Source of the DNA: a virus
Length of the DNA: 62,838 nucleotides
IMG/VR virus record: IMGVR_UViG_3300042444_000200
Location: 1-62,838 of that record
Strand: one strand, 5' to 3'
Each line of letters begins with the position of its first letter. Positions within the stretch are counted from its first letter, which is position 1. Below are positions 17,679 to 31,093 of the stretch, piece after piece. A program made the translations under genes and the position numbers. The notes under the pieces are model-generated. The model searched no databases. It was not told where the DNA came from and was given only the letters and a program-made list of their open reading frames with translations.

Positions 17679-17782
17679 ATATCGTCCCCGCGAAACCTAC
17701 ATCATCCGCACAGGCTTCGCGCGCGCGTTCCGTTTCAGAACGACAAGCCGCAATATGCGTTTGGGCCTTGTTTTATAGGCGT

Positions 17783-17811
17783 TTGCAGCATGTTCGGCAG
17801 GGGCATTGTGT
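17783..17811 (+). promoter_or_regulatory. Early promoter module copy 1
   Basis: TTGCAG, 17 bases with TGTTCGGCAGG inside, then TTGTGT. The spacing and internal core match four other copies at 18.8, 20.6, 23.2 and 25.3 kb. It is followed by a GCCCCG/CGGGGC hairpin and, 72 bases on, the first plus-strand early gene. Confidence 0.68.
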
Positions 17812-18806: not shown

Positions 18807-18820
18807 GTTTCCCGCACTGG

Positions 18821-18849
18821 TTGCCGGTCGTTCGGCAGGTGCTATGTGG
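18821..18849 (+). promoter_or_regulatory. Early promoter module copy 2
   Basis: TTGCCG, 17-base spacer containing GTCGTTCGGCAGGTG, ATGTGG, then a GCGGCA/TGCCGC leader hairpin. Sits between a terminator and the ATG of the 107-residue gene, as expected of a promoter. Confidence 0.65.
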
Positions 18850-20614: not shown

Positions 20615-20646
20615 TTCGCCCGTAACAACGGGCTTCGAGCGGGCGG

Positions 20647-20675
20647 TTGACGCTCGTTCGGCAGGTGATTTGTGA
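20647..20675 (+). promoter_or_regulatory. Early promoter module copy 3 (amidoligase)
   Basis: TTGACG, 17 bases with CTCGTTCGGCAGGTG, TTGTGA. This is the best match to a consensus -35 among the copies. It is followed by a GAGCCG...CGGCTC hairpin and then by an apparent terminator before the amidoligase ATG. Confidence 0.72.
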
Positions 20676-20713
20676 GCCGTGCTGCTCGTTGCAGTGCGGC
20701 TCGTTTCTTTCCG

Positions 20714-20740
20714 GGCCATGCCATTCGGCGTGGCCTTTTT
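20714..20740 (+). terminator. Terminator-like hairpin in amidoligase leader
   Basis: GGCCA-t-GCC / GGC-g-TGGCC stem with an ATTC loop, then five T. It lies between promoter module 3 and the gene it should serve, so it may act as an attenuator needing antitermination, or may insulate the gene from upstream read-through. Confidence 0.65.
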
Positions 20741-20764
20741 CGTTTCTTGAAAGGGGATCGCGAT

Positions 20765-22039
20765 ATGTCCGCACAGAAGTACGACGAGGCTGGGTTCGGC
20801 GAGGACGACGGCCTGCACCGTGACACGGGCACGATGTTCAACCCGGAGGGGTTCGACTGCGACGGGCGTGACGACGAGGGCTACGACGTAAATGGCTACA
20901 ACGAGTCGGGCTTCAACCGCGACGGCATCAACCGCCGAACCGGCAATGAGTTCGACATCTACGGTCACACGGAGGACGGCTCTCGCTACAACGAGGACGG
21001 CTACGACTGCAACGGGTACGACGAGGAGGGGTACAACGAGGAGGGGTACGACTCGGAGGGGTTCGATAGCGACGGCATCCACTGCGATACCGGCACTGAA
21101 TACAACGAGGACGGGTACGACGTTCACGGGAACGAGCAGGAGGCCGACGACGACGGGTTCGACGACGGGCTTCGGCCGTACGAGGAGTGCGTGATCGAGG
21201 CGACGGGCTGGCGTCACCCAACCGGGCGGCACGACACGCTGCTCGCCGGTCACGAGATCGAGATGTATTCCCGTGACTGCGACCTGACCGACGTTGCCAA
21301 CGTGGTGAATCAGTTGGCCCGTGCGTACCGCAAGCACGCCCCGACTGTGCTTGGAGGCTCGAAGTTCGGGCATTGTGCCATCGGCAAGCACGACGGTTCG
21401 CTTGGCGAGGACGGGCGGATCGGCGGGTTCGAGACTGTCACTGTCCCCCTCACTCGTGAGCAGACGTACGGAATCTTTGAGTCGTTCGATGTGCTGGGCG
21501 ACGGCGAGTGCAAGGCGTGGAGCATGGGCCCGGAGGTCGGGCACCACATCCACCTCAGTCTGTCCGCCATCTCGCCGCTCACGCTCGGAAAGATGGGCGT
21601 GTTCCTCAACGAGCCGGGCAATCGGCGGTTCATTGAGGCAGTGGCCCAGCGGGGTGCGATCTACAACGGGTTCGAGAACAACAAGAAACTCACGCACCCC
21701 AAGCCGTACGTGCGGCACAGCGTGATGAACGTGACGCCGCAGACAGTGGAGTTCCGCATGTTCAAGTCGAACCTGCGGTCGAGCGGCATCCTCAAGAACT
21801 ACGAGTTCGCCATCTCAACCGTGCGGTTCTGCCGTGAGGCAAGTGCTGCCGACCTGAACTTCACCCACTACCTGCGGTTCCTTGCAGCCCACCGCAAGGA
21901 GTTCCGGTACATGCACCAGTTCATGCTGCAAGCGAGCGGCGTAGTCAGCATCTACGACGGCCGCAAGTGGTGTGACGTTTACGCCTCGTTCGTTCCGCAG
22001 AACGGACGCCGTGCCAACAAGCCCGACCAAGCAGCCTAA
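20765..22039 (+). CDS. GS-like amidoligase with acidic repeat N-terminus
   Basis: 424 residues. Residues 1-135 are tandem five-residue repeats of the type D-x-E-G-Y / D-x-D-G-F, very rich in Asp, Gly, Tyr and Asn. From about 155 comes an Amidoligase_2-type domain (glutamine-synthetase-like carboxylate-amine ligase): GHEIEMY near 162, KHDGSL near 208, GFETVTVPL near 221, GHHIHLSL near 259 and VEFRMFKSNLRSS farther on. Such enzymes form amide bonds with ATP. The next gene is a glutamine amidotransferase, which could supply ammonia. The repeat tail may be its own substrate; that is a hypothesis. Driven by promoter module 3. Confidence 0.83.
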   Translation: MSAQKYDEAGFGEDDGLHRDTGTMFNPEGFDCDGRDDEGYDVNGYNESGFNRDGINRRTGNEFDIYGHTEDGSRYNEDGYDCNGYDEEGYNEEGYDSEGFDSDGIHCDTGTEYNEDGYDVHGNEQEADDDGFDDGLRPYEECVIEATGWRHPTGRHDTLLAGHEIEMYSRDCDLTDVANVVNQLARAYRKHAPTVLGGSKFGHCAIGKHDGSLGEDGRIGGFETVTVPLTREQTYGIFESFDVLGDGECKAWSMGPEVGHHIHLSLSAISPLTLGKMGVFLNEPGNRRFIEAVAQRGAIYNGFENNKKLTHPKPYVRHSVMNVTPQTVEFRMFKSNLRSSGILKNYEFAISTVRFCREASAADLNFTHYLRFLAAHRKEFRYMHQFMLQASGVVSIYDGRKWCDVYASFVPQNGRRANKPDQAA

Positions 22040-22068
22040 CCCACCCCACCACAAGGAGAACCAACCAC

Positions 22069-22875
22069 ATGTGCCTCGCAATCTACAAGCCTGCCACCAC
22101 CAAGCCCGACTGGGGTGCCTACCAAAACGGGATGGCCGAGAACCCAGATGGCTGGGGCTTTGCCGTGATCGACAACGGGGAACTGCTAACCGCCTGCGGA
22201 ATGGGCGGGTTCGCTGAGTTCCGCCACAACTTCGAGCCCTTCTCGCACTGCCAGTCCATCATCCACTTCCGATGGGCTACGCATGGCACGAAGGACGAGA
22301 CGAACTGCCACCCCTTCTTCGTCAAGGACTTGGCCGTGATTCACAACGGCATGATTCAGATCGACACGAAGTCTGACGAGGCACGCTCGGACACATGGCA
22401 CTTCGTCACGAAGGTCGTGGCCCCCATGTACGAGCGTGACAGGGACTTCTTCCTCCACGACGATGTCATGTTCAACATGGAGTTGGCCCACGCCACCAGC
22501 AAGTTCGTGTTCCTGCGGCAAGACGGAACCGTGTGCATCTGGAACGAGGCAGACGGGAAGAACACTGCCGATGGGCACTGGTATTCCAACGACGGGTACC
22601 TCCCGTCCCGCAAGTATTGGACGCAGCCCTCTTCCAAGAAGGCTGTTGCCAACTGCACCGTGTCAGTCCGCGATTCGTGGAGCATGACCGACGCGGAGGA
22701 CGAGGAGATGTACCGCAGGTGGAAGGAGGACGAGGGCTACGACTCATACGAGAGGGCGTACCACGAGAAGATGGAGCACGACCTCATGGCGTTCGGGTTC
22801 ACCCGCGACACGGTGGACGAGGTGTTCGGGCTGCTCGGCGGCTACGGATTGGAGGCACTGTTCGACGTACTCTGA
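22069..22875 (+). CDS. Class II glutamine amidotransferase
   Basis: 268 residues starting Met-Cys (MCLAIYKP), so Cys2 becomes the N-terminal nucleophile after Met removal. The class II (Ntn) signatures are all present: NPDGWGFAV, HFRWATHGTKDETNCHPF and LAVIHNGMI. This domain hydrolyses glutamine and channels ammonia to a partner. Here the partner is presumably the amidoligase 29 bases upstream, because no synthase domain is fused. The C-terminal 90 residues are helical and acidic and may dock the partner. AAGGAGAACC precedes the ATG. Confidence 0.88.
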   Translation: MCLAIYKPATTKPDWGAYQNGMAENPDGWGFAVIDNGELLTACGMGGFAEFRHNFEPFSHCQSIIHFRWATHGTKDETNCHPFFVKDLAVIHNGMIQIDTKSDEARSDTWHFVTKVVAPMYERDRDFFLHDDVMFNMELAHATSKFVFLRQDGTVCIWNEADGKNTADGHWYSNDGYLPSRKYWTQPSSKKAVANCTVSVRDSWSMTDAEDEEMYRRWKEDEGYDSYERAYHEKMEHDLMAFGFTRDTVDEVFGLLGGYGLEALFDVL

Positions 22876-22880
22876 CCCGA

Positions 22881-22897
22881 GAAAAAAGTCACGAGAC
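22881..22897 (+). repeat. GAAAAAAGTCACGNGAC repeat, copy 1
   Basis: A 17-base element just after the amidotransferase stop codon. An identical copy except for one base lies at 24665, also just after a stop codon. A TTATAC lies shortly downstream here. Unknown role; possibly a regulator site or processing signal. Confidence 0.5.
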
Positions 22898-22948
22898 TGC
22901 GGAAACACACGGCGTTATACAGGTAACCAATCGCATGGAGGCGTACGC

Positions 22949-23227
22949 ATGGAGTGGCAGGCGGGAGAATGGATACCGATGGAGCGGGTGTCTGCGATGA
23001 CCGAAGCGGGCGTGCCCGCATCGGAGTCCCTCCCCCTGCTGCTCGTGCTATCACGGGTCGAGAGGTTGATTGAGAAGGGCACCGACATGGATCGGGTTGA
23101 CCTCGTAATAGTTCGCACGTTCTTGCAGTCCTACATCACGGCGTTCACCGCCCGAATGGTGGACATGAGGAGGCTGGTCGAGGTACTCGCGGAGTCGCGG
23201 GTATCAACGGAACCATCTAACAACTAG
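22949..23227 (+). CDS. Unknown helical protein (92 aa)
   Basis: MEWQAGEWIPMERVSAMTEAG follows GGAGG by 7 bases. Helical, with a leucine-rich middle (ESLPLLLVLSRVERLIEKGTDMDRVDLVIVRTFLQ). It has no catalytic motif and is not obviously membrane-spanning. It ends just ahead of promoter module 4. It may belong to the amidoligase transcript; function unknown. Confidence 0.62.
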   Translation: MEWQAGEWIPMERVSAMTEAGVPASESLPLLLVLSRVERLIEKGTDMDRVDLVIVRTFLQSYITAFTARMVDMRRLVEVLAESRVSTEPSNN

Positions 23228-23243
23228 CCCTTCCCGCTTGGGG

Positions 23244-23272
23244 TTGAGGCTCGTTCGGCAGGTGGATTGTGT
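23244..23272 (+). promoter_or_regulatory. Early promoter module copy 4
   Basis: TTGAGG, 17-base spacer CTCGTTCGGCAGGTG plus two bases, TTGTGT, then a 10-base GC stem (23273-23295) directly at the expected transcript start, and the ATG of the 289-residue gene 48 bases after the -10. Confidence 0.7.
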
Positions 23273-23320
23273 GGGCTCGGCAGTGTGCCGGGCCCTTGTC
23301 ATTTCAACACGGAGGATCGA

Positions 23321-24190
23321 ATGAACATCCATGAAATCAGCACTGACCGGCAGGGTGGCGTCGTCTACTGGGACGCCAGCCCTGTGCGGAAAGCCGTACT
23401 CGACGGGGCGTACACCGAGTTCGGTCTGGCGAACCAACTACCCCGCCGCATGAAGCGGGCGACCGCACTGCGGATGGCGATGTCGGATTACATCGAGGCC
23501 AACCGGAACGGACGCAAGCGGACACGCATCGACCTCAACCCACTCGACCGCAGGGTGTGCGGGTTCGAGGCGGTGCTTCAGAACAAGGGCGACGAGCAGA
23601 ACCAGCACCAGTACCAGTTCACTGCGAAGGTGAACACGACCGACGAGTCCGTGCGTGTCACCTCCGGCGGCGTATCACTGGGGCAGCAGGCCGACGACGA
23701 CATGACCGCACGATACCAGCAGCACCTGCTCTGGTACTGCGGCTCGACGGTGGGTGCCCTGCTCAAGCGGGCTGTGCTGGAGTGGCGTGGCACCTCGCTC
23801 AAGGGCAGGGGTGGCGTGTACTTCCTGCCCGATGCAGCCATCGACAAGTACCGTGACCTCGACTCCCGGTTCACTGCGTCCGGTGCTGCCTGCCAGTTGC
23901 ATGTGATCCGCTTCCCCATCGGGAGGGACGATGCCACTACCCGCTCGGTTATCGGTGGGTTCCGGGATGAGGTGCGATCCCTCATCGAAGAACTCAACGG
24001 CGACCTGCTGGGTGACACCGAGATGCGGGAGCGTGGCGTATCCACCCGCATCACACGACTGACTGAGGCACGGGAGAAGATCGCCTTCTACTGTGACCTG
24101 TTCAGCGTGTCGCTCGACGACCTGCGTGAAGCGGTGGATACCACGACCACCGCAATCAAGATGGCCCGACTCACCCAAATCTCTGCGTGA
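23321..24190 (+). CDS. Unknown conserved-looking phage protein (289 aa)
   Basis: ATG behind GGAGGATCGA (MNIHEISTDRQGGVVYWDASP). Mixed alpha/beta; a GGVYFLPDAAIDKYRDLDSR segment resembles proteins often found next to MoxR-type ATPases in phage early regions, but I cannot name the family. A basic patch (NRNGRKRTRIDLN) and a helical C-terminus (ITRLTEAREKIAFYCDLFSVSLDDLREAV) are visible. It is led by promoter module 4 and followed by two short coupled genes. It could be an adaptor or substrate protein of the MoxR/VWA pair; this is only positional inference. Confidence 0.7.
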   Translation: MNIHEISTDRQGGVVYWDASPVRKAVLDGAYTEFGLANQLPRRMKRATALRMAMSDYIEANRNGRKRTRIDLNPLDRRVCGFEAVLQNKGDEQNQHQYQFTAKVNTTDESVRVTSGGVSLGQQADDDMTARYQQHLLWYCGSTVGALLKRAVLEWRGTSLKGRGGVYFLPDAAIDKYRDLDSRFTASGAACQLHVIRFPIGRDDATTRSVIGGFRDEVRSLIEELNGDLLGDTEMRERGVSTRITRLTEAREKIAFYCDLFSVSLDDLREAVDTTTTAIKMARLTQISA

Positions 24191-24201
24191 AAGGACACAC
24201 G

Positions 24202-24435
24202 ATGCCATACCACGACTCGGAATACCCAAGCATCCTGCGTGGCAGGAGCAAGCGGGAGTCGCAGCGATTGCTGGATGCGGCACCCGTGATGCTCGACGCC
24301 CTGCGGGAGGCACTAGACACCCTCGTGAATCTGTACGAGTACGCATATCCGGGAGACGAATCCGACAACGACGTCACCGACACCATCGACATGGTGATCG
24401 AGGCCATCGACAAAGCAGAAGGGAGCAAGGCATGA
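24202..24435 (+). CDS. Unknown small protein (77 aa)
   Basis: MPYHDSEYPSILRGRSKRESQRLLDAAP; helical, with a conserved-looking 'LLDAAPVMLDALREAL' stretch common to many small phage proteins of the 'APELLEALE' type. The end is acidic. It overlaps the next gene by four bases (ATGA). Function unknown, probably a small early accessory. Confidence 0.65.
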   Translation: MPYHDSEYPSILRGRSKRESQRLLDAAPVMLDALREALDTLVNLYEYAYPGDESDNDVTDTIDMVIEAIDKAEGSKA

Positions 24436-24650
24436 ACTCTTTCTGGTTCCACTTCAACAAGCCCCTGTCCCAAAGCAAGGGGCACCCCGTGATGACAGTC
24501 CACTACCGCAACGCCTGCATCCCGGTGCGGCACATCATCTGCAAGGTACCAACCAGCACCAGAGAAAGGAGACAGCAACCCCGCATGGTTATCGCCGGGC
24601 GTGGTGTGGTCAGGGTCGAGAACGACACTGCCACCATCACCGAAATCTGA
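24432..24650 (+). CDS. Unknown small beta protein (72 aa)
   Basis: MNSFWFHFNKPLSQSKGHPVMTVHY; aromatic and basic, predicted beta strands, one Cys pair (ACIPVRHIIC). It shares ATGA coupling with the upstream gene. The C-terminus MVIAGRGVVRVENDTATI looks like a beta hairpin. No family match was made. Confidence 0.62.
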   Translation: MNSFWFHFNKPLSQSKGHPVMTVHYRNACIPVRHIICKVPTSTRERRQQPRMVIAGRGVVRVENDTATITEI

Positions 24651-24664
24651 CGCACGTTTTCCTA

Positions 24665-24681
24665 GAAAAAAGTCACGCGAC
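24665..24681 (+). repeat. GAAAAAAGTCACGNGAC repeat, copy 2
   Basis: Second copy of the 17-base element, 15 bases after a stop codon. Followed by a CGCCAGC/GCTGGCG hairpin and the HTH gene. Confidence 0.5.
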
Positions 24682-24687
24682 CTAGCA

Positions 24688-24710
24688 GGACGCCAGCACT
24701 ACGCTGGCGT
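24688..24710 (+). terminator. Hairpin before HTH gene, possible weak terminator
   Basis: ACGCCAGC ACTAC GCTGGCGT stem with a short T-run beyond it. It may end the upstream transcript or shape the leader of the HTH gene. Confidence 0.45.
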
Positions 24711-24736
24711 TTCGCATTTCCCATTAGGAGTTTCCC

Positions 24737-25060
24737 ATGACCCACGCAGAATCCCGTGCCCGCCGTGCCCTTGTCCCCACCCTGTTCCGCAAGGGGGCCA
24801 CAGTCAAGGGCATCGCCCGCCAGTTGAAAGTCCACGAGTACTACGTCCAGTCCATCCTCCGGCAGGCTGGCGTTGATCCGACCGAGTACTCCACCCGTGC
24901 CCGGAACGCAGAGATCAGGCGGCTGCGGATGGAGGGCTGGAGCCCGAGCGTTCTGGCGGAGGAGTTCGGCCTGACTCAAGGCCGCATCTCCCAGATCACT
25001 GGCCCCGTCCGCAAGGCGGACATCCTCGCACACGCTGCGGCGGAAGGGCTGGTGGCCTGA
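24737..25060 (+). CDS. DNA-binding protein with two helix-turn-helix motifs (107 aa)
   Basis: MTHAESRARRALVPTLFRKGAT; the first HTH is GATVKGIARQLKVHEYYVQSILRQAG (residues 20-45) and the second is GWSPSVLAEEFGLTQGRISQITG (about 67-89). Both have the A-x-x-x-G-L/V turn. This is the layout of small transcription factors with tandem HTH (Mor/sigma-like). It is the best candidate regulator for the repeated early promoter core GTTCGGCAGG, but no direct link is seen. AGGAG stands before the ATG, and the TGATG overlap couples it to the next gene. Confidence 0.75.
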   Translation: MTHAESRARRALVPTLFRKGATVKGIARQLKVHEYYVQSILRQAGVDPTEYSTRARNAEIRRLRMEGWSPSVLAEEFGLTQGRISQITGPVRKADILAHAAAEGLVA

Positions 25061-25263
25061 TGCAAGCACCGAGACTGAGCGAGAAGGTGAGGCGTGGGCT
25101 ATGGCTCATCGTCGCACGCAGTGCAACGGTGTGGAGTTGGGAGCAGATCAGTTCCCAAGAAACACCGAGAGACCAGCGAGAGGAGAGGGAGTGCGTACTC
25201 GCAGCGGCGAGATACGCGGAGCACCACTGGAAGCAGGAGCCCCATGACGGGGAGGCAGCATGA
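25060..25263 (+). CDS. Unknown basic small protein (67 aa)
   Basis: ATG in the stop of the HTH gene (TGATG). MQAPRLSEKVRRGLWLIVARSATVWSW; the first half is basic and amphipathic, the second acidic (REERECVLAAARYAEHHW). It may form a helical hairpin. Its stop overlaps the start of a 24-codon hydrophobic frame. Function unknown. Confidence 0.55.
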   Translation: MQAPRLSEKVRRGLWLIVARSATVWSWEQISSQETPRDQREERECVLAAARYAEHHWKQEPHDGEAA

Positions 25264-25334
25264 ACGAGGACACGGTACTGATCATCGTCACGATCCTTCG
25301 CATCATCGCAGAGGTCATCTCCGCAGGTGGTTGA
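25260..25334 (+). CDS. Possible micro-membrane protein (24 aa)
   Basis: MNEDTVLIIVTILRIIAEVISAGG, coupled to the gene before it through ATGA. It is almost entirely hydrophobic, enough for one membrane helix. Its TGA overlaps the -35 of promoter module 5. GGGGAGG precedes it. Short length keeps confidence low, but tight coupling and a good ribosome-binding site support it. Confidence 0.45.
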   Translation: MNEDTVLIIVTILRIIAEVISAGG

Positions 25335-25359
25335 GGCTCGTTCGGCAGGTACATGGCGG
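25331..25359 (+). promoter_or_regulatory. Early promoter module copy 5 (MoxR unit)
   Basis: TTGAGG, 17 bases with CTCGTTCGGCAGGT, then a degenerate TGGCGG in the -10 place. A GCGGGGGC/GCCCCCGC hairpin follows (25356-25386). Weakest -10 of the five; may be a regulator site more than a promoter. Confidence 0.58.
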
Positions 25360-25411
25360 GGGCTAGTCACGTTGGCTGGCCCCCGCCTTTCATTCACACA
25401 AGGACTACGAC

Positions 25412-26548
25412 ATGACAAACGCATGGCTTGATCACAACGCCCCTTACTACTGTGCCCTTCAGGTTGTCCCCTCCCTTGCGGAAGGGTTCTGCGGCGAGGG
25501 CAAGACGCAGATCGCTGCCTCGTTGAGCAAGGCATTGAACCGCAGGTTCGTGCTGCTCATCGCCAGCCAGTGTGCCCCCGAAGATGTGGCTGGTATGCCA
25601 GCCCCCGACAACAAGTCGGGTGTCACCCGGATGCTACCCCCGTACTGGTACGAGGATGTCAAGGGGCCGGGCGGGTTCCTGTTCGCTGACGAGATGACCA
25701 CGCCAGTCCCTTCGGTGCGTGCCCCCTTCCTCTCCGTGTTCTCGGAGTTCAAGGTCGGCCAGTACCACATGCACCCCGACACCATCGTGTGCGGTGCGTT
25801 CAACCCGGCAGACCTCGCCCCCAACGGCAGTCCGCTGGAGCCAGCGATGGCGAACCGCTTCTTCCACCACAAGTGGCAGATGAACAAGGACGCTTGGCTC
25901 TCCGGCGTGTGCGACCCGGCGACGCCGCTGAACTGGAAGGCACCCGAGTTCCCCATCGTGCCGTCGAACTGGCAGGACTATCTCGGTATCTGGTCGCCGC
26001 TCGTTGGTGAGTTTCTCCGCTCACACGACGGGCTGTACACGCAGATGCCGAAGGACGGCGAACTCGCCTTCGCTTCCTATCGAACGTGGACGTACGCCAT
26101 CCGCTGCCTTGCCGCAGCAGAGGCGTCGGGCGCTGAGATGTACGAGAACAACAGCGTCGTCCGCAAGATGGTAGCCGGGTGCGTCGGGGTCAACGCAGCC
26201 CACCAGTTCTGTGAGTGGATGCGTACCCGGAACCTCGCCCGCATCGACGACCTGCTCGATGGCACGGCGGTGTTCAAGCACGACGACAACCGACCGGACA
26301 TCACGCTGTGCGTGGCTGCCGCAATCACCACTGCGGTCGGCCTGCCCAGCAAGTTCACGCCGGATCGGTGGGATCGTGCGGCTGCGATCATCGGCCAGAT
26401 CGGAACCGAGTGCAGTCCTGAGATTGCCCTCAAGCACAACAACAAACTCAAGCAGGCCGCCACTTCCAACGGCTACCGGCCGAAGGCTGCGGCACTCAAG
26501 CCCCTGCTTGACCTGATGGACACGGTCGATGCACTGCTCGCCAAGTAA
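25412..26548 (+). CDS. MoxR-type AAA+ ATPase
   Basis: 378 residues. Walker A GFCGEGKT at residues 25-32, Walker B FLFADE at 89-94 and a sensor-1-like CGAFNPAD near 129. AAA+ proteins of the MoxR branch work with VWA-domain partners to remodel or mature target complexes (RavA-ViaA is the known example). The partner here is the metallopeptidase/VWA protein three genes downstream. An N-terminal extension typical of host MoxR is lacking. The leader carries promoter module 5. Confidence 0.85.
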   Translation: MTNAWLDHNAPYYCALQVVPSLAEGFCGEGKTQIAASLSKALNRRFVLLIASQCAPEDVAGMPAPDNKSGVTRMLPPYWYEDVKGPGGFLFADEMTTPVPSVRAPFLSVFSEFKVGQYHMHPDTIVCGAFNPADLAPNGSPLEPAMANRFFHHKWQMNKDAWLSGVCDPATPLNWKAPEFPIVPSNWQDYLGIWSPLVGEFLRSHDGLYTQMPKDGELAFASYRTWTYAIRCLAAAEASGAEMYENNSVVRKMVAGCVGVNAAHQFCEWMRTRNLARIDDLLDGTAVFKHDDNRPDITLCVAAAITTAVGLPSKFTPDRWDRAAAIIGQIGTECSPEIALKHNNKLKQAATSNGYRPKAAALKPLLDLMDTVDALLAK

Positions 26549-26559
26549 CTAACCAACAC

Positions 26560-26598
26560 CCGCCCCGCCCCCTTGCACAACGCAGGGGGGCGGGCACA
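26560..26598 (+). repeat. GC-rich hairpin after MoxR gene
   Basis: CCCGCCCC...CCTTGC / GCAGGG...GGGCGGG, very stable, in the 62-base gap. It has no T-run, so it may attenuate or protect the transcript rather than terminate it. Confidence 0.45.
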
Positions 26599-26610
26599 GA
26601 AGGAGGGACA

Positions 26611-27132
26611 ATGGCTCTCAAGATCAACAACGTCTGGAAGAAATGGGGCGTCCGCCTATGGAGCCCATTCAAAAGCACATACACAACCTCATGCCGGAAG
26701 CGTACGTTCGAGCAGGCTGTGGAACTGGGGTACCAAGAGGTGGCGAAACTGCGGGAGGAGATTGCCCCGCATCCCCACCGATTCACGTTCAAGCCCGACG
26801 AGGTTCCGAACGTAGACGTAGGGTTCGTCACGGTTGACGTCGTGATGGAGTTGAAGGGCTCGGTCTGGATAGATCGGGGCCTTCGATTCACTCAGACTTC
26901 GCCAGCGGGGCTGCGATGTGCATACCACACCAGTAGAGGTGCTGACACGTTCGCATCCGCTGCACGCATCAAGCGTGGAGGCGAGGCGTACGTTTCACTC
27001 GACCCGTACCTGTACGACATGGGCACAAAGAGTCAGTCGCATTACCTCCGGCTGGCAGAGGCCCTCTCCCAAGCAGAAGAGTATCTCAAGGAGCATTCAG
27101 TTTTCTGGAACGCATTTCGACACACGGCATAG
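26611..27132 (+). CDS. Unknown protein in MoxR/VWA unit (173 aa)
   Basis: MALKINNVWKKWGVRLWSPFKSTY after GAAGGAGG. Basic N-terminus, a core with VDVGFVTVDVVMELKGSVWIDRG, and a helical end (YLRLAEALSQAEEYLKEHSVFWN). It lies between the MoxR ATPase and the VWA protein, a place where adaptor or target genes are found in such systems. Family not recognised. Confidence 0.65.
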   Translation: MALKINNVWKKWGVRLWSPFKSTYTTSCRKRTFEQAVELGYQEVAKLREEIAPHPHRFTFKPDEVPNVDVGFVTVDVVMELKGSVWIDRGLRFTQTSPAGLRCAYHTSRGADTFASAARIKRGGEAYVSLDPYLYDMGTKSQSHYLRLAEALSQAEEYLKEHSVFWNAFRHTA

Positions 27133-27142
27133 GAGGCCACCC

Positions 27143-27418
27143 ATGATTCGGACACCACACTTCACACTGACCGACGCACAACTCGACTCCCTCGTGGACG
27201 CCCTTGTCTACGCCCTCGATGACATCGGCGAGTACATCGACTACCTCCACAAGGAGTCACTCAAGGAAGATGCCAACGACGCAGACCTCGACGATGCAAT
27301 CATGTTTGCAGAAGAGGATCGCAGTCGGTGGACGTTCCTGCGTGACGAGTTGCAGGACATGATCGACGCACGACCCAAGTTGACAATCGTCAAGCCATTC
27401 AACCCGGAGCACAACTGA
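27143..27418 (+). CDS. Unknown acidic protein in MoxR/VWA unit (91 aa)
   Basis: MIRTPHFTLTDAQLDSLVDALVYALDDIGEYIDYL; AGGAGG ahead. A strongly acidic helical protein ending KPFNPEHN. Its TGA overlaps the ATG of the VWA gene (TGATG), showing coupled translation with it. Acidic charge could let it bind the ATPase or mimic a substrate. Unknown. Confidence 0.65.
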   Translation: MIRTPHFTLTDAQLDSLVDALVYALDDIGEYIDYLHKESLKEDANDADLDDAIMFAEEDRSRWTFLRDELQDMIDARPKLTIVKPFNPEHN

Positions 27419-28788
27419 TGAACTTCACAGAATCCCGCACGCGGATCGGCCAGTTCCGCGTCGCAGCAGGTGATGCCATGTCGTACATGGGCACCTACAT
27501 CTACGCCCTGATCCCGATTGAAAGACCGGGCATCGGCACGATGGCGGTTGACAAGTACGGCAGGCTGTACCACGACCCCGCCTACACCAACACAGTCTCG
27601 CTTGAGACCGGCATGTGGACGGTACTGCACGAGTCGCTTCACCTCGTGTTCGACCACGCTGGCATGGCAGAGCGGATCATTGGCAAGGCACCCACCAACG
27701 TGCAAGCAAACGCATGGAACTTTGCGTGCGACATGGTGGTCAACGAAATCCTCCGGCAGTACCTATCGCACGCACCGGAGGGGATCGTTACGGCTGGGCG
27801 GTTTGGCCTGCCGCCGAAGCGGACGGCTATCGAGTACTACCACATGCTGATGGACATCAACGACAACCAACAGAAGGAACAGGGCGATGACACGCAAGAC
27901 CAACAAGACGACGAGCAAGGCGAGCAGCAGGACGACGAGCAAGGCGACGGCGGCGAGGGAGACGAGAGCGAGGAGCCGGGCACTGAACGACCTAGCGATG
28001 AGGATGGGAGTGACGGCGGCGATCCTGATGCGGACGGCCCAAGCGATAGCGTGGGAGGCGAACCAGAACTCACCGACCACGAAGGCAAGGGCGGGTCGTG
28101 CAGCGACGGGCAACCCCGCGACTACGAACTCCCGGCCGACGACTCGTGGGAGGACAGGTCGTTCTCGATGACCGCCGACCTCGAAGCCAAGTGCGAGGAG
28201 ACTGGGTGGGGCAGCGTGCCCGGCGAACTGCGTGTCGCCCTCGATGCGAAGGTCAGGCCGCAGCCCGACCCCTTCGATGTCCTGCGTGCGGCGTGCTGCC
28301 GTGCGGTGGCATCGCCGGTCGGGTCGCCGGACTTTACCTACCGTCGCATGAGCAGGCGTCAGGTCGAGGATGCACCACGCCTGAAGGGTGTGATCAAGAC
28401 CACGCCCAGTGCCATCGTGGTACTGGATACCTCCGGCTCGATGACCAACCGCGAGACGCAGGACAAGGCCCTGACTGTGGTGGCCTCCGCCCTGCGGCGG
28501 CTGCGGTCAGTGAAGGTGATCTGCGGTGACACGCACATCGCCAGCAACAAGACCGTGACCAACCTCAAGCAGGTGGACTGGGCTGGCGGCGGCGGCACCA
28601 GCATGAGGCGAGTGTTGGAGGAGGCGGATCGGATCGAGAAGCCCGATGCCATCGTCCTCATCACGGACGGTTACACCGATTGGCCCGAGCGGCTGCGTGC
28701 TAGGCTGGTCGTTGCGTTGACTGAGGACAGGCCGACCCCATCGTGGGCGAAGTCGGTGCTGGTCAAGAAGAAGGAGGTGACACAGTGA
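27418..28788 (+). CDS. Metallopeptidase-like/VWA fusion protein
   Basis: 456 residues in three parts. An N-terminal zinc-peptidase-like domain (DUF2201-type) has HESLH at 71-75, followed by NFACDMVVNE, which supplies the usual Asp ligand. An acidic Gln/Asp/Glu/Gly linker covers 150-235. A C-terminal VWA-like domain has MIDAS DTSGS at 337-341, GGGGTSM and LITDGYTD. In host genomes such proteins pair with MoxR ATPases, as here. The reaction and target are unknown; it may cut or assemble a phage or host complex. Confidence 0.86.
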   Translation: MNFTESRTRIGQFRVAAGDAMSYMGTYIYALIPIERPGIGTMAVDKYGRLYHDPAYTNTVSLETGMWTVLHESLHLVFDHAGMAERIIGKAPTNVQANAWNFACDMVVNEILRQYLSHAPEGIVTAGRFGLPPKRTAIEYYHMLMDINDNQQKEQGDDTQDQQDDEQGEQQDDEQGDGGEGDESEEPGTERPSDEDGSDGGDPDADGPSDSVGGEPELTDHEGKGGSCSDGQPRDYELPADDSWEDRSFSMTADLEAKCEETGWGSVPGELRVALDAKVRPQPDPFDVLRAACCRAVASPVGSPDFTYRRMSRRQVEDAPRLKGVIKTTPSAIVVLDTSGSMTNRETQDKALTVVASALRRLRSVKVICGDTHIASNKTVTNLKQVDWAGGGGTSMRRVLEEADRIEKPDAIVLITDGYTDWPERLRARLVVALTEDRPTPSWAKSVLVKKKEVTQ

Positions 28789-28880
28789 CACCCATCCTGT
28801 CTATCGAGCAAGTCTTTCTTATCAACGTAGTCATTGTCTCTCTCCTGTTCTTTCTCATTCTGGATGGAGGTCGAGGTTGA
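28785..28880 (+). CDS. Possible membrane micro-protein (31 aa)
   Basis: GTG start overlapping the VWA stop (GTGA), with AAGGAGG 7 bases before it. The sequence (TPILSIEQVFLINVVIVSLLFFLILDGG) is a single membrane helix. Its stop overlaps the TTG start of the next gene (TTGA). Excellent ribosome-binding site and coupling on both sides make it likely despite its size. It might recruit the VWA complex to the membrane. Confidence 0.55.
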   Translation: MTPILSIEQVFLINVVIVSLLFFLILDGGRG

Positions 28881-29104: not shown

Positions 29105-29694
29105 CTGCGGCCATGCAACTGTGGAAGAACTTCTTCTTGGTCGGGTACTACAACCACCGTGCGGTAGCCCCGTGCCTGCTGCAAAAGCAACGCACTCCAG
29201 AGCGGGCGGTCGAGGCAGCGGAGCGGTACATCACTGACTCGTACCGGAAGCACAACTCGAATGCCAACGTGTACGGCGTGTACGTCAGTGCGTGCCCGGC
29301 ACAATGGCAGAAGGTTGGCGTGCAATGGGAGTCTGTGCTTGGCCCGCCCTTGTACAGCGACATGGACAGGCTGGCAGTGGGTGCCTCGAACTTTCTCTGG
29401 ACTCACGTTGCCGACAGGCGTGGGTTCCGGGAGGTCGAGTGCTACTCAAGGGAGCAGAAGGGTGAGGGCATACGCCCGCCACTCCTGTTCCCTCACCGCC
29501 TGATGCGGGTGCTGCATGTGCAGTGGAAGCATGGCAAAGACCTCTCGACCCTGTGGTCTCCGGCAGTGGAGGCCATTGCGTCGAGGCCAACCAAGTCGAA
29601 GCGGCTAGTGCTGGCACGAGATGCGTTCGTGGAACTGGCCGACCTGTGCAAAGAGCGTAACGCTTTCAACCTATCCTTCAGACACGGAGCGTGA
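29101..29694 (+). CDS. Unknown basic protein (197 aa)
   Basis: MTAAMQLWKNFFLVGYYNHRAVAP; mixed fold, rich in aromatic and basic residues, with ERAVEAAERYITDSYRKHN helical and VYGVYVSACPAQWQKVG. It ends LADLCKERNAFNLSF. It shares a four-base overlap with the gene before, and the recombinase follows by one base. Unknown; not similar to the other genes here. Confidence 0.62.
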   Translation: MTAAMQLWKNFFLVGYYNHRAVAPCLLQKQRTPERAVEAAERYITDSYRKHNSNANVYGVYVSACPAQWQKVGVQWESVLGPPLYSDMDRLAVGASNFLWTHVADRRGFREVECYSREQKGEGIRPPLLFPHRLMRVLHVQWKHGKDLSTLWSPAVEAIASRPTKSKRLVLARDAFVELADLCKERNAFNLSFRHGA

Positions 29695-29695
29695 C

Positions 29696-30517
29696 ATGGC
29701 AAAAGTCTACGGCTATGGGCGGCACAGCACCAACCACCAAGCCATCACGGAGGAGGTGCAACGGCAGCAGGTGGACGCCTACTGCAAGTACCAACTCCTC
29801 CCGAAGGGCGAGGAACTTGGCGACCCCTTCTGGTTCTACGATGCGGCAACGTCTGGCGGCAAGCCGCTGACTGAGCGGGAGCAGGGGCTGCGGATGTGGT
29901 GCGTGCTCCAGCCCGGTGACCACATCGTGGTTGCCAAGTTGGATCGTGCGTTTCGTTCGGTGATCGACGGCGTGAACTGCATCGAGATGCTCAAGGCAAA
30001 GGGCGTCCACCTACACATCCTCGACGTACACATCGACACCTCGTCTGCGATGGGGCAGTTCCATGTGACGATCATGCTGGCGTTCGCCCAACTCCAGCGG
30101 CAGTACATCTCCGACCGCACGAAGGAGGTGATGGCACGCAAGAAGGAGAGCGGCAAGTGGGTAGGCAACGGTGCCAACTCCGTGCCGTTCGGGTGGAAGA
30201 AGGCGGGCAAGCAGGGCTACCTCTTCAAGGACGAGGAGGAGCGGTCAAGGATCGAGCAGATACACCAGTGGCGGGAGGAGGGACTGAGCCTCTACTCCAT
30301 CTACTGCAAGGCGAACAGCAAGCAGTACCGCTGGGCACGGAAGGGCAGGTCGTGGGAACCCATGACCGTGAAGGCCGCACTCATTGCTCGGGATCGGGGG
30401 TATCCGAAGGTGATACCCAAGTCGCTTCTACGCACCCCCGTAGTTCACGGAGTGCCGCTTCCAGCCGACGCTGTAGCGTGCGAGGGTCTCGACCCTGCTC
30501 CCGTGCAATCTCCGTGA
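29696..30517 (+). CDS. Serine recombinase
   Basis: 273 residues. The resolvase/invertase catalytic domain is clear: YGYGRHSTNHQ with the nucleophile Ser11, GDHIVVAKLDRAFRSVIDG with the conserved Arg residues, and the long helix after it (MGQFHVTIMLAFAQLQRQYISDRTKE). A shortened Recombinase domain follows (VPFGWKKAGKQGYL). It is smaller than large serine integrases and lacks their Cys-rich and coiled-coil tail. It may invert or resolve phage DNA. The 3' end overlaps the convergent sigma gene by about 137 bases. Confidence 0.86.
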   Translation: MAKVYGYGRHSTNHQAITEEVQRQQVDAYCKYQLLPKGEELGDPFWFYDAATSGGKPLTEREQGLRMWCVLQPGDHIVVAKLDRAFRSVIDGVNCIEMLKAKGVHLHILDVHIDTSSAMGQFHVTIMLAFAQLQRQYISDRTKEVMARKKESGKWVGNGANSVPFGWKKAGKQGYLFKDEEERSRIEQIHQWREEGLSLYSIYCKANSKQYRWARKGRSWEPMTVKAALIARDRGYPKVIPKSLLRTPVVHGVPLPADAVACEGLDPAPVQSP

Positions 30518-30941
30518 CGCGACGGCCGATGACGATGGCCTGATGGATCAGGTCGCGGGCTGGTGGTTCGAGCCTGCTCATGCACTCTTGTGCTTCGCCG
30601 AAGTCGGGCATGGATGCCCGCTTGTCGGTGGCTGAAAGAGCGTGGCGGGGGGAGGAGTCCTCCCTCCGCCGCTGCTCCTTCATCGCCTCCTTCCGCAGTT
30701 CATTGCGGATGGCGACGGTGAAGTAGGTGGACATCTTGCTCTTGCGTTCGTCGAAACAGAACGACGCGAGGGTGATGGCGGTCATCGCTGCACCCGTGCT
30801 ATCTATCGAGCCCCTGTACTTACGCAGGCATGGGTGCCCACGCCAGAAGGCGGCAATCGCCTCCGGCATTATGGCAAGGGCTTGCTCGGCAACCTTCTGT
30901 TGCTCGGGCGTCAACTGTCTGACGAGCGGGGGCCTACTCAC
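30381..30941 (-). CDS. RNA polymerase sigma factor, phage-encoded
   Basis: 186 residues from a GTG overlapping the upstream TGA, with GGAGG five bases before. Region 2-like sequence: YRGSIDSTGAAMTAITLASFC, then FDERKSKMSTYFTVAIRNELRKE, matching the F-D-x-x-(R)-x-x-F-S-T-Y-x-x-x-x-I-R pattern of sigma. Region 4-like HTH at the end: LEPPARDLIHQAIVIGRR, then VTEIAREQGRDPRTLQRRLEAAL. It should steer host RNA polymerase to phage promoters; the repeated GGCCATAAAC motif is a plausible target. The family call is strong, the target is inferred. Confidence 0.82.
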   Translation of the reverse strand: MSRPPLVRQLTPEQQKVAEQALAIMPEAIAAFWRGHPCLRKYRGSIDSTGAAMTAITLASFCFDERKSKMSTYFTVAIRNELRKEAMKEQRRREDSSPRHALSATDKRASMPDFGEAQECMSRLEPPARDLIHQAIVIGRRVTEIAREQGRDPRTLQRRLEAALRELRGCVEATWVSPSDTPDPEQ

Positions 30942-31093
30942 AGAGACCTCCACTCGTGCATCTTCCAGTCACGCGCGCAATGCTTCTCGTGGCAGCGGTC
31001 GCAGTGGACTGGTTCACACAGCATCCCGCTGGGCGTGACCTTGACAGTCGCCTCCCGCATCCCGCATGACACGCACCCCTTACCGGCGGGCAC
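30938..31093 (-). CDS. Small zinc-binding protein (about 51 aa)
   Basis: Probable GTG start (VPAGKGCVSCGMREATVKV) overlapping the previous gene. Cys pairs CVSC and CEPVHCDRCHEKHC make a likely zinc ribbon. It couples to the sigma gene by GTGA, so it is possibly a sigma partner or anti-sigma-like factor. The frame is open upstream for 40 more codons, but that part overlaps the membrane protein gene. Start uncertain. Confidence 0.55.
   Translation of the reverse strand: MPAGKGCVSCGMREATVKVTPSGMLCEPVHCDRCHEKHCARDWKMHEWRSL

Follow-up and report, generated by a model that had tools for sequence, protein, structure and literature searches.

Adjacent genes for an Amidoligase_2 protein and a class II glutamine amidotransferase have been described in phages such as MEP402 of Methylophilales (gp06-gp07), ctgrD200, mycobacteriophage Marvin (gp105-gp106), and LUZ24-like phages (PMC3890496, PMC10580990; papers named by accession are cited here from excerpts), as well as in a planctomycete phage (PMC10945688). 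For these pairs, an envelope change against superinfection has been suggested, as cited for phiEco32 (PMC10580990, PMC11318856), and a role in nitrogen metabolism was proposed for the planctomycete phage. A MoxR ATPase gene followed by a gene joining an HExxH metallopeptidase to a VWA domain is described in jumbo phages, with virion assembly as the proposed role (PMC7824862); the same order is found in RM378 (p138-p139), N4 (gp24-gp25), and PHROGs 1297 and 1314. RavA-ViaA and NorQ-NorD also pair a MoxR ATPase with a VWA partner. Here, we analyzed a 62,838-base IMG/VR viral record (IMGVR_UViG_3300042444_000200; hereafter, the window) in which genes of both kinds lie together: an amidoligase (AL), a glutamine amidotransferase (GA), a MoxR ATPase (MX), and an HExxH and VWA protein (VW). 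We consider it likely that they belong to an island adjoining a serine integrase, in a lineage with genomes of ~60 kb, that carries two separately inherited accessory modules, AL-GA and DUF6744-MX-VW, whose actions are not linked. The genes of these modules, with small genes between them, occupy 20.7-28.8 kb:

20765-22039, + strand: AL, predicted glutamine synthetase (GS)-fold amidoligase whose first 130 residues or so form an acidic region of YDxxGYNxxGF repeats; the frame opens with GTG at 20672
22069-22875, + strand: GA, stand-alone class II glutamine amidotransferase with Cys2
23321-24190, + strand: DUF6744 protein, third member of the MoxR-VWA unit; TTG at 23267 is the first start in the list of open reading frames
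25412-26548, + strand: MX, MoxR-family AAA+ ATPase
27418-28788, + strand: VW, metallopeptidase-like DUF2201_N domain fused to a VWA-like domain

A sequence-only reading of the window had singled out AL, GA, MX, and VW as a candidate system. All four are open frames on one strand within ~8 kb, where that reading placed them, and its four family assignments were supported; the DUF6744 protein between GA and MX escaped it. It knew of no described phage system joining the four, and our literature search likewise found no joining paper: among the papers searched, only PMC7824862 mentions MoxR, amidoligase, and phage together, and its excerpts treat the MoxR-vWA pair and cite amidoligase work separately.

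Comparison loci were collected with a GATase alignment scan, from which the best 80 of 357 viral relatives were kept, and a second scan with a VW alignment, which gave 58 loci. The sequence-only reading was to count as refuted if no other genome kept the four genes together; 18 contigs besides the window do keep them, with AL, GA, MX, and VW in that order on one strand and a span of 4,810-9,271 bases (median, 8,257). By tblastn and profiles, all four were located in L013-L025, L028, and L029. At least three pairs among the four-gene contigs have an identical MX (L018/L019, L022/L023, and L028/L029, which appear in the MX tree as L102/L103, L142/L128, and L118/L119, respectively). L098 is a nineteenth four-gene contig, with its halves at opposite contig ends, as would fit a circularly permuted contig.

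The idea that the four genes form one system fared less well, since whole records can carry one pair without the other, the trees of the two pairs conflict, and the position of AL-GA varies relative to the MX unit. Searches of 27 whole records placed AL and GA in the same 6. Among 25 records chosen for MX-VW, 21 lacked AL and GA, and 16 of these were at least 45 kb long (L134, L135, and L138 of the 16 share an identical MX). The GATase loci L033-L092 gave the reciprocal picture, with AL in 59 of 60 and MX or VW in none. MX was found in 0 of 30 GATase records, and the same MX profile matched 7 of 22 records in a head-protein sample, control included. This sample was not chosen by AL, GA, MX, or VW: 230 relatives of the window's head protein were found, the best 80 were kept, and 21 longer records plus a control were searched with four profiles (G012, G018, and G026 of the 21 also entered through VW or GA). 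MX and VW occurred in the same 6 of the 21 relatives (Fisher P = 1.8e-5) and AL and GA in the same 2 (P = 0.005); none carried both sets, and 13 carried neither, 6 of them fragments below 50 kb. The control, L020, matched all four profiles. Between the sets, no association appeared in this small sample (P = 1.0). G012 and G014, whose head proteins are 82% identical to that of the window, have DUF6744, MX, VW, and the integrase in that order without AL-GA. Where AL-GA is present, it lies upstream of DUF6744 in the window and between DUF6744 and MX in L028. Because the two sets come and go separately, they look like neighboring cargo rather than one machine.

Gene trees lead to the same view. 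In the tree of MX and VW combined, the window pairs with L129 and L132 (support, 98), both without AL-GA in whole records, and the MX tree gives the same pairing. Placement of the window with the core four-gene clade is rejected for MX+VW (approximately unbiased [AU] P = 5e-127; 2e-5 without two long rows), in a test that included the core members L101 and L106. In the GA tree, by contrast, the window and the core four-gene set share a supported group (SH-aLRT, 98). On the MX tree, the four-gene combination appears twice, once in the main clade and once at the window. Because the GA and MX+VW trees conflict, the AL-GA and MX-VW genes of the window appear to have different histories. We take both sets to be cargo that enters and leaves a single island lying upstream of the integrase.

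The gene missed by the sequence-only reading recurs as a third partner of MX-VW. The window protein scores 26.8 bits against DUF6744 (PF20529; cut-off, 27), and 10 of the 13 proteins of its aligned set match the family at E ≤ 0.01. With a profile grown from the window protein, a homolog was found upstream of MX on the same strand in 52 of 66 testable loci, a count that includes the window. By hidden Markov model (HMM), DUF6744 accompanies MX in 36 of 45 testable viral contigs; a distant homolog stands at the same position in three of the nine HMM-negative contigs (L134, L138, and L145; hhalign probability, 76-90), a comparison that did not take in L135. No DUF6744 match was found in MX-free loci among L002-L150, nor by tblastn in the phage collection, and the literature search returned no paper naming DUF6744. 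In chromosomes, matches at E 0.001 came from 8 of 392 planctomycete genomes, with 4 over the cut-off, and from 0 of 14 control genomes. Seven of nine planctomycete neighborhoods were confirmed with our own profile, although the matches are weak and may be due to chance. An AAA ATPase of another Pfam family (PF00004) adjoins DUF6744 in three of the nine (the planctomycete chromosomes L264, L265, and L266 each have a weak match adjoining such a gene), and a VWA protein lies nearby in one; because of these PF00004 neighbors, DUF6744 may partner other ATPases. A natural guess is that it is an ATPase adaptor, inhibitor, or substrate. AL-GA and MX-VW are kinds of pair already known in phages; as far as our searches reach, the DUF6744-MX-VW triad is a new variation.

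Several observations weigh against two unlinked modules with DUF6744 in the second. The four-gene neighborhood is common where main-clade MX-VW occurs (the 18 contigs and L098), with order and strand constant. AL-GA co-inheritance is also clustered on the MX tree, as the AL-GA state needs only 4 changes at minimum over 38 labelled rows, compared with a mean of ~13 in shuffled labels and none as low in 500 shuffles (L099 and L101 were scored AL-GA-negative from partial records). A GA tree with the core set and L028 together is not rejected (AU P = 0.16), the trees were built quickly, with SH-aLRT as their sole measure of support, and the window forms a long branch. Absences may be false because the records are fragments by IMG/VR class. 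For DUF6744, the link to MX is one of gene neighborhood only, and no DUF6744 accompanies MX in N4, RM378, phage G, PA5oct, MT835968, L144, and L146-L149, or in two plasmid loci with MX.

The sequence-only reading had also noted similar promoter-like modules before the units, and a 42-nucleotide repeat does precede AL, DUF6744, and MX. Five + strand copies with at least 60% identity were found (17769-17810, 18807-18848, 20633-20674, 23230-23271, and 25317-25358), most with a GTTGA(g/c)GCTCGTTCGGCAGGT-like core. Three of them belong to the modules of the island:

20633-20736, + strand: repeat module (promoter-like box and terminator-like hairpins) before AL-GA
23230-23295, + strand: repeat module before DUF6744
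25317-25387, + strand: repeat module before MX

These three copies have the exact 15-mer GCTCGTTCGGCAGGT in common, and the core occurs four times with up to two mismatches, compared with 0.28 occurrences expected. Each of the three is followed by a terminator-like hairpin, of which a scan counted 13 such sites versus 8.8 expected. A scan for sigma-70 promoters did not recognize the modules, and the exact core was not seen in the relatives searched, except for one chance-like partial match in L236. The modules may possibly be a shared promoter with an attenuator. Since the copies at 17769 and 18807 precede other genes of the region, the repeat suggests joint control of the island rather than one function.

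The assignment of AL combines family, residue, and fold evidence. ATG at 20765 is a likelier start than the GTG with which the frame opens. The sequence-only reading had tied its case to profile confirmation of the amidoligase and the VWA domain; the latter was obtained, and for AL itself Pfam returned no family, PF12224 (Amidoligase_2) included, whereas PF12224 matches 6 of the 16 proteins of the AL aligned set (best E, 2.5e-7). Across that set, residues G162, E164, E166, K208, D210, E223, H261, H263, N322, E329, and R331 are fully or almost fully conserved. An AlphaFold2 model (mean pLDDT, 77) has as its best Foldseek matches chains of the GS superfamily, namely, glutamine synthetases, GmaS, Dop, PafA, and YbdK, with 5dm3 as the sole match below 0.001 (E = 3.7e-4). 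A second structure comparison returned YbdK (Z = 10.8) and plant glutamate-cysteine ligase (Z = 10.4); judged by the model, AL is far from housekeeping GS, and its nearest folds are carboxylate-amine ligases. Because its relatives match Amidoligase_2, the residues are conserved, and the model has a GS fold, we assign AL as a predicted, divergent Amidoligase_2 relative beyond the reach of the profile. Its N-terminus (20765-21160) consists of acidic YDxxGYNxxGFDxxGI repeats, modeled as a ladder of short strands; they are kept in several relatives and much shorter in L015, L016, and L025. A tandem pair of amidoligase frames adjoining one GATase was seen at 14507-17740 of L026 (G026), a head-protein relative with no MX.

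GA is a class II enzyme of 268 residues in which no second domain was recognized. It contains Cys2, HFRWATHG, HNG, and Asp108, with Cys2, N93, G94, and D108 invariant across 13 proteins; we take the roles of these residues to be those of their GlmS counterparts. The sequence match to GlmS (E = 2.3e-7) bears out the stand-alone amidotransferase with an N-terminal Cys, although its Pfam match remains below cut-off (GATase_6, PF13522; 19.5 bits versus 27; E = 0.0011). A single-protein scan of viral contigs with GA found no relative. In StenR_269 and RHph_I3_11, AL-GA pairs are annotated, and our profiles reach only GA. AL and GA share adjacency and conserved residues with the described phage pairs. 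The earlier suggestion of a possible amide-forming pair is supported. The window differs in its low identity to the first four members of each set (21-24% for AL and 26-33% for GA), in the acidic N-terminal repeats of AL, and in the adjoining MoxR unit.

MX is a divergent MoxR protein. It matches PHROG 1297, annotated as ATPase, at E = 4e-34, and its matches to AAA models of Pfam reach only E = 0.017 and 0.062; it retains G25, G28, G30, K31, T32, D93, E94, N131, and R224 at positions we take to be Walker A, Walker B, and sensor residues. NorQ and RavA rank first among Foldseek matches to its weak model (pLDDT, 61; best E, 1.3e-3). VW exceeds the Pfam cut-offs of both PF13203 (DUF2201_N, residues 19-325) and PF09967 (DUF2201), with HExxHxxxxH at H71, E72, H75, and H80 and a MIDAS-like set of D337, S339, S341, T394, and D417. 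MX accompanies VW in 53 of 58 VW loci, and the other five end within 0.7 kb of VW. Neither a single-protein scan of viral contigs nor tblastn in the phage collection found a VW relative. The likeness to RavA-ViaA-like remodeling pairs drawn earlier is supported as regards a MoxR/VWA pair whose nearest folds may be NorQ and RavA, with the difference that VW has the DUF2201_N metallopeptidase-like domain, which the ViaA-type partner presumably lacks. Phage MoxR-vWA pairs differ in turn from the window, where the DUF6744 partner lies upstream; N4 gp25 is beyond the reach of the VW profile and is linked by motif only. PHROG 1314, N4 gp25, and RM378 p139 are labeled HNH endonuclease, and because DUF2201 metallopeptidase and VWA domains are present in the member from the window, this label is probably wrong. 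The actinobacterial plasmids pREL1 and pCBMA213_1 have adjacent MX and VW homologs (VW, E = 1e-41 and 3e-42; MX, E = 6e-47 and 8e-48), and tblastn with MX reached a Rhodococcus plasmid at E = 9e-24. Such plasmids were considered and rejected as a source of the triad, as they carry the MX-VW pair only, with no DUF6744 among 14 neighboring proteins checked. In the Rhodococcus and Mycolicibacterium plasmid loci (L269 and L270), the genes after MoxR and DUF2201 encode a small protein, another of 365-395 amino acids, and an AAA ATPase.

From the families and conserved residues, we infer how the two modules might act. In the first, the N-terminal cysteine of GA (Cys2) would free ammonia from glutamine; the ammonia would pass to AL, which as a GS-fold ATP-dependent ligase would amidate a carboxylate on a target, such as a peptide of the host envelope or a protein. 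In the second, a hexamer of MX together with the VWA domain of VW would pull on or remodel a host target, with possible cleavage of that target by the HExxHxxxxH domain; DUF6744 would be a putative adaptor, inhibitor, or substrate of the machine. Because the same promoter-like leader precedes AL, DUF6744, and MX, the two modules are probably expressed together, and they would act separately.

A single four-gene system is unlikely. In its fullest form, AL-GA would mark a host target by amidation, and the DUF6744-MX-VW unit would recognize and remodel the marked target, with amidation licensing or blocking extraction and cleavage by the triad; this composite would have been assembled more than once. 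The strongest argument for such a functional tie, and the reason we retain a small share of probability for it, is that the four genes meet in many contigs and at two separate points of the MX tree; their constant order and strand and the common leader repeat point the same way. Against it stand the many records with either set alone, the absence of both sets together from the 21 head-protein relatives, the conflict between the GA and MX+VW trees, and the repeat copies that precede other genes, so that we regard the composite as very unlikely.

Two other proposals concern one module each. A role for MX-VW in assembling or processing phage particles has a precedent in the proposal for jumbo phages, made by analogy with an archaeal virus MoxR-vWA pair in the excerpted text of PMC7824862, and the peptidase motif of VW would suit it. 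MX is nevertheless missing from 15 of 21 head-protein relatives (9 in records of at least 57 kb and 6 in fragments below 50 kb), which argues against a required particle-assembly role in this lineage, and MX-VW lies on the + strand, whereas the head, tail-like, helicase, and recombination genes identified in the window lie on the - strand. Virion maturation thus seems quite unlikely, and we prefer a host-directed action of MX-VW. A metabolic helper role for AL-GA in host nitrogen use would have a parallel in the planctomycete phage, which in the excerpt of PMC10945688 has genes for an amidoligase, a glutamine amidotransferase, a glutathione synthase, and a gamma-glutamylcyclotransferase. Neither of the last two was noticed beside AL-GA, though no search aimed at them was run, and the distance of AL from housekeeping GS, with carboxylate-amine ligases as its nearest folds, further speaks against this role, which we consider unlikely. 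Between envelope change and nitrogen metabolism as such, the present data favor neither for AL-GA. Two accessory modules inherited separately remain our preferred explanation.

The surroundings of the island include two further features:

24432-24650, + strand: 72-amino-acid protein with no family assigned, matched in 24 loci
29621-30517, + strand: serine recombinase (integrase/invertase-like) adjoining the island

At most of its 24 loci, the 72-amino-acid protein shows 56-66% identity, with 40% at one, and it is also present in one-module loci. A phage-encoded sigma-70-like factor (30381-30953) adjoins the integrase in many relatives and might drive the leader modules. Neither an Rfam match nor, by ARAGORN, a tRNA was found in the window, and PADLOC models of known and candidate anti-phage defenses gave no match for 10 island proteins at E 0.01. 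As to the host, a head-protein scan of bacterial and archaeal genomes yielded a single relative (62% identity), which lies on a 55-kb contig in a metagenome-assembled genome (MAG) of Pirellulaceae, and the best NCBIfam model for the sigma factor is a Rhodopirellula/Verrucomicrobium family, far under cut-off. None of the five families was found in the 19 kb inspected of that contig, and MX gave only weak matches in the whole MAG. Planctomycetota can be offered as a lead to the host, drawn from these similarities.

The analysis recasts a four-gene cluster as two testable modules and identifies DUF6744 as a recurring, previously undescribed partner for the phage MoxR-metallopeptidase/VWA machine. 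To our knowledge, few phages have been characterized for the planctomycete phylum; if the planctomycete link is true, the island would give a view of the cargo carried by phages of that phylum.

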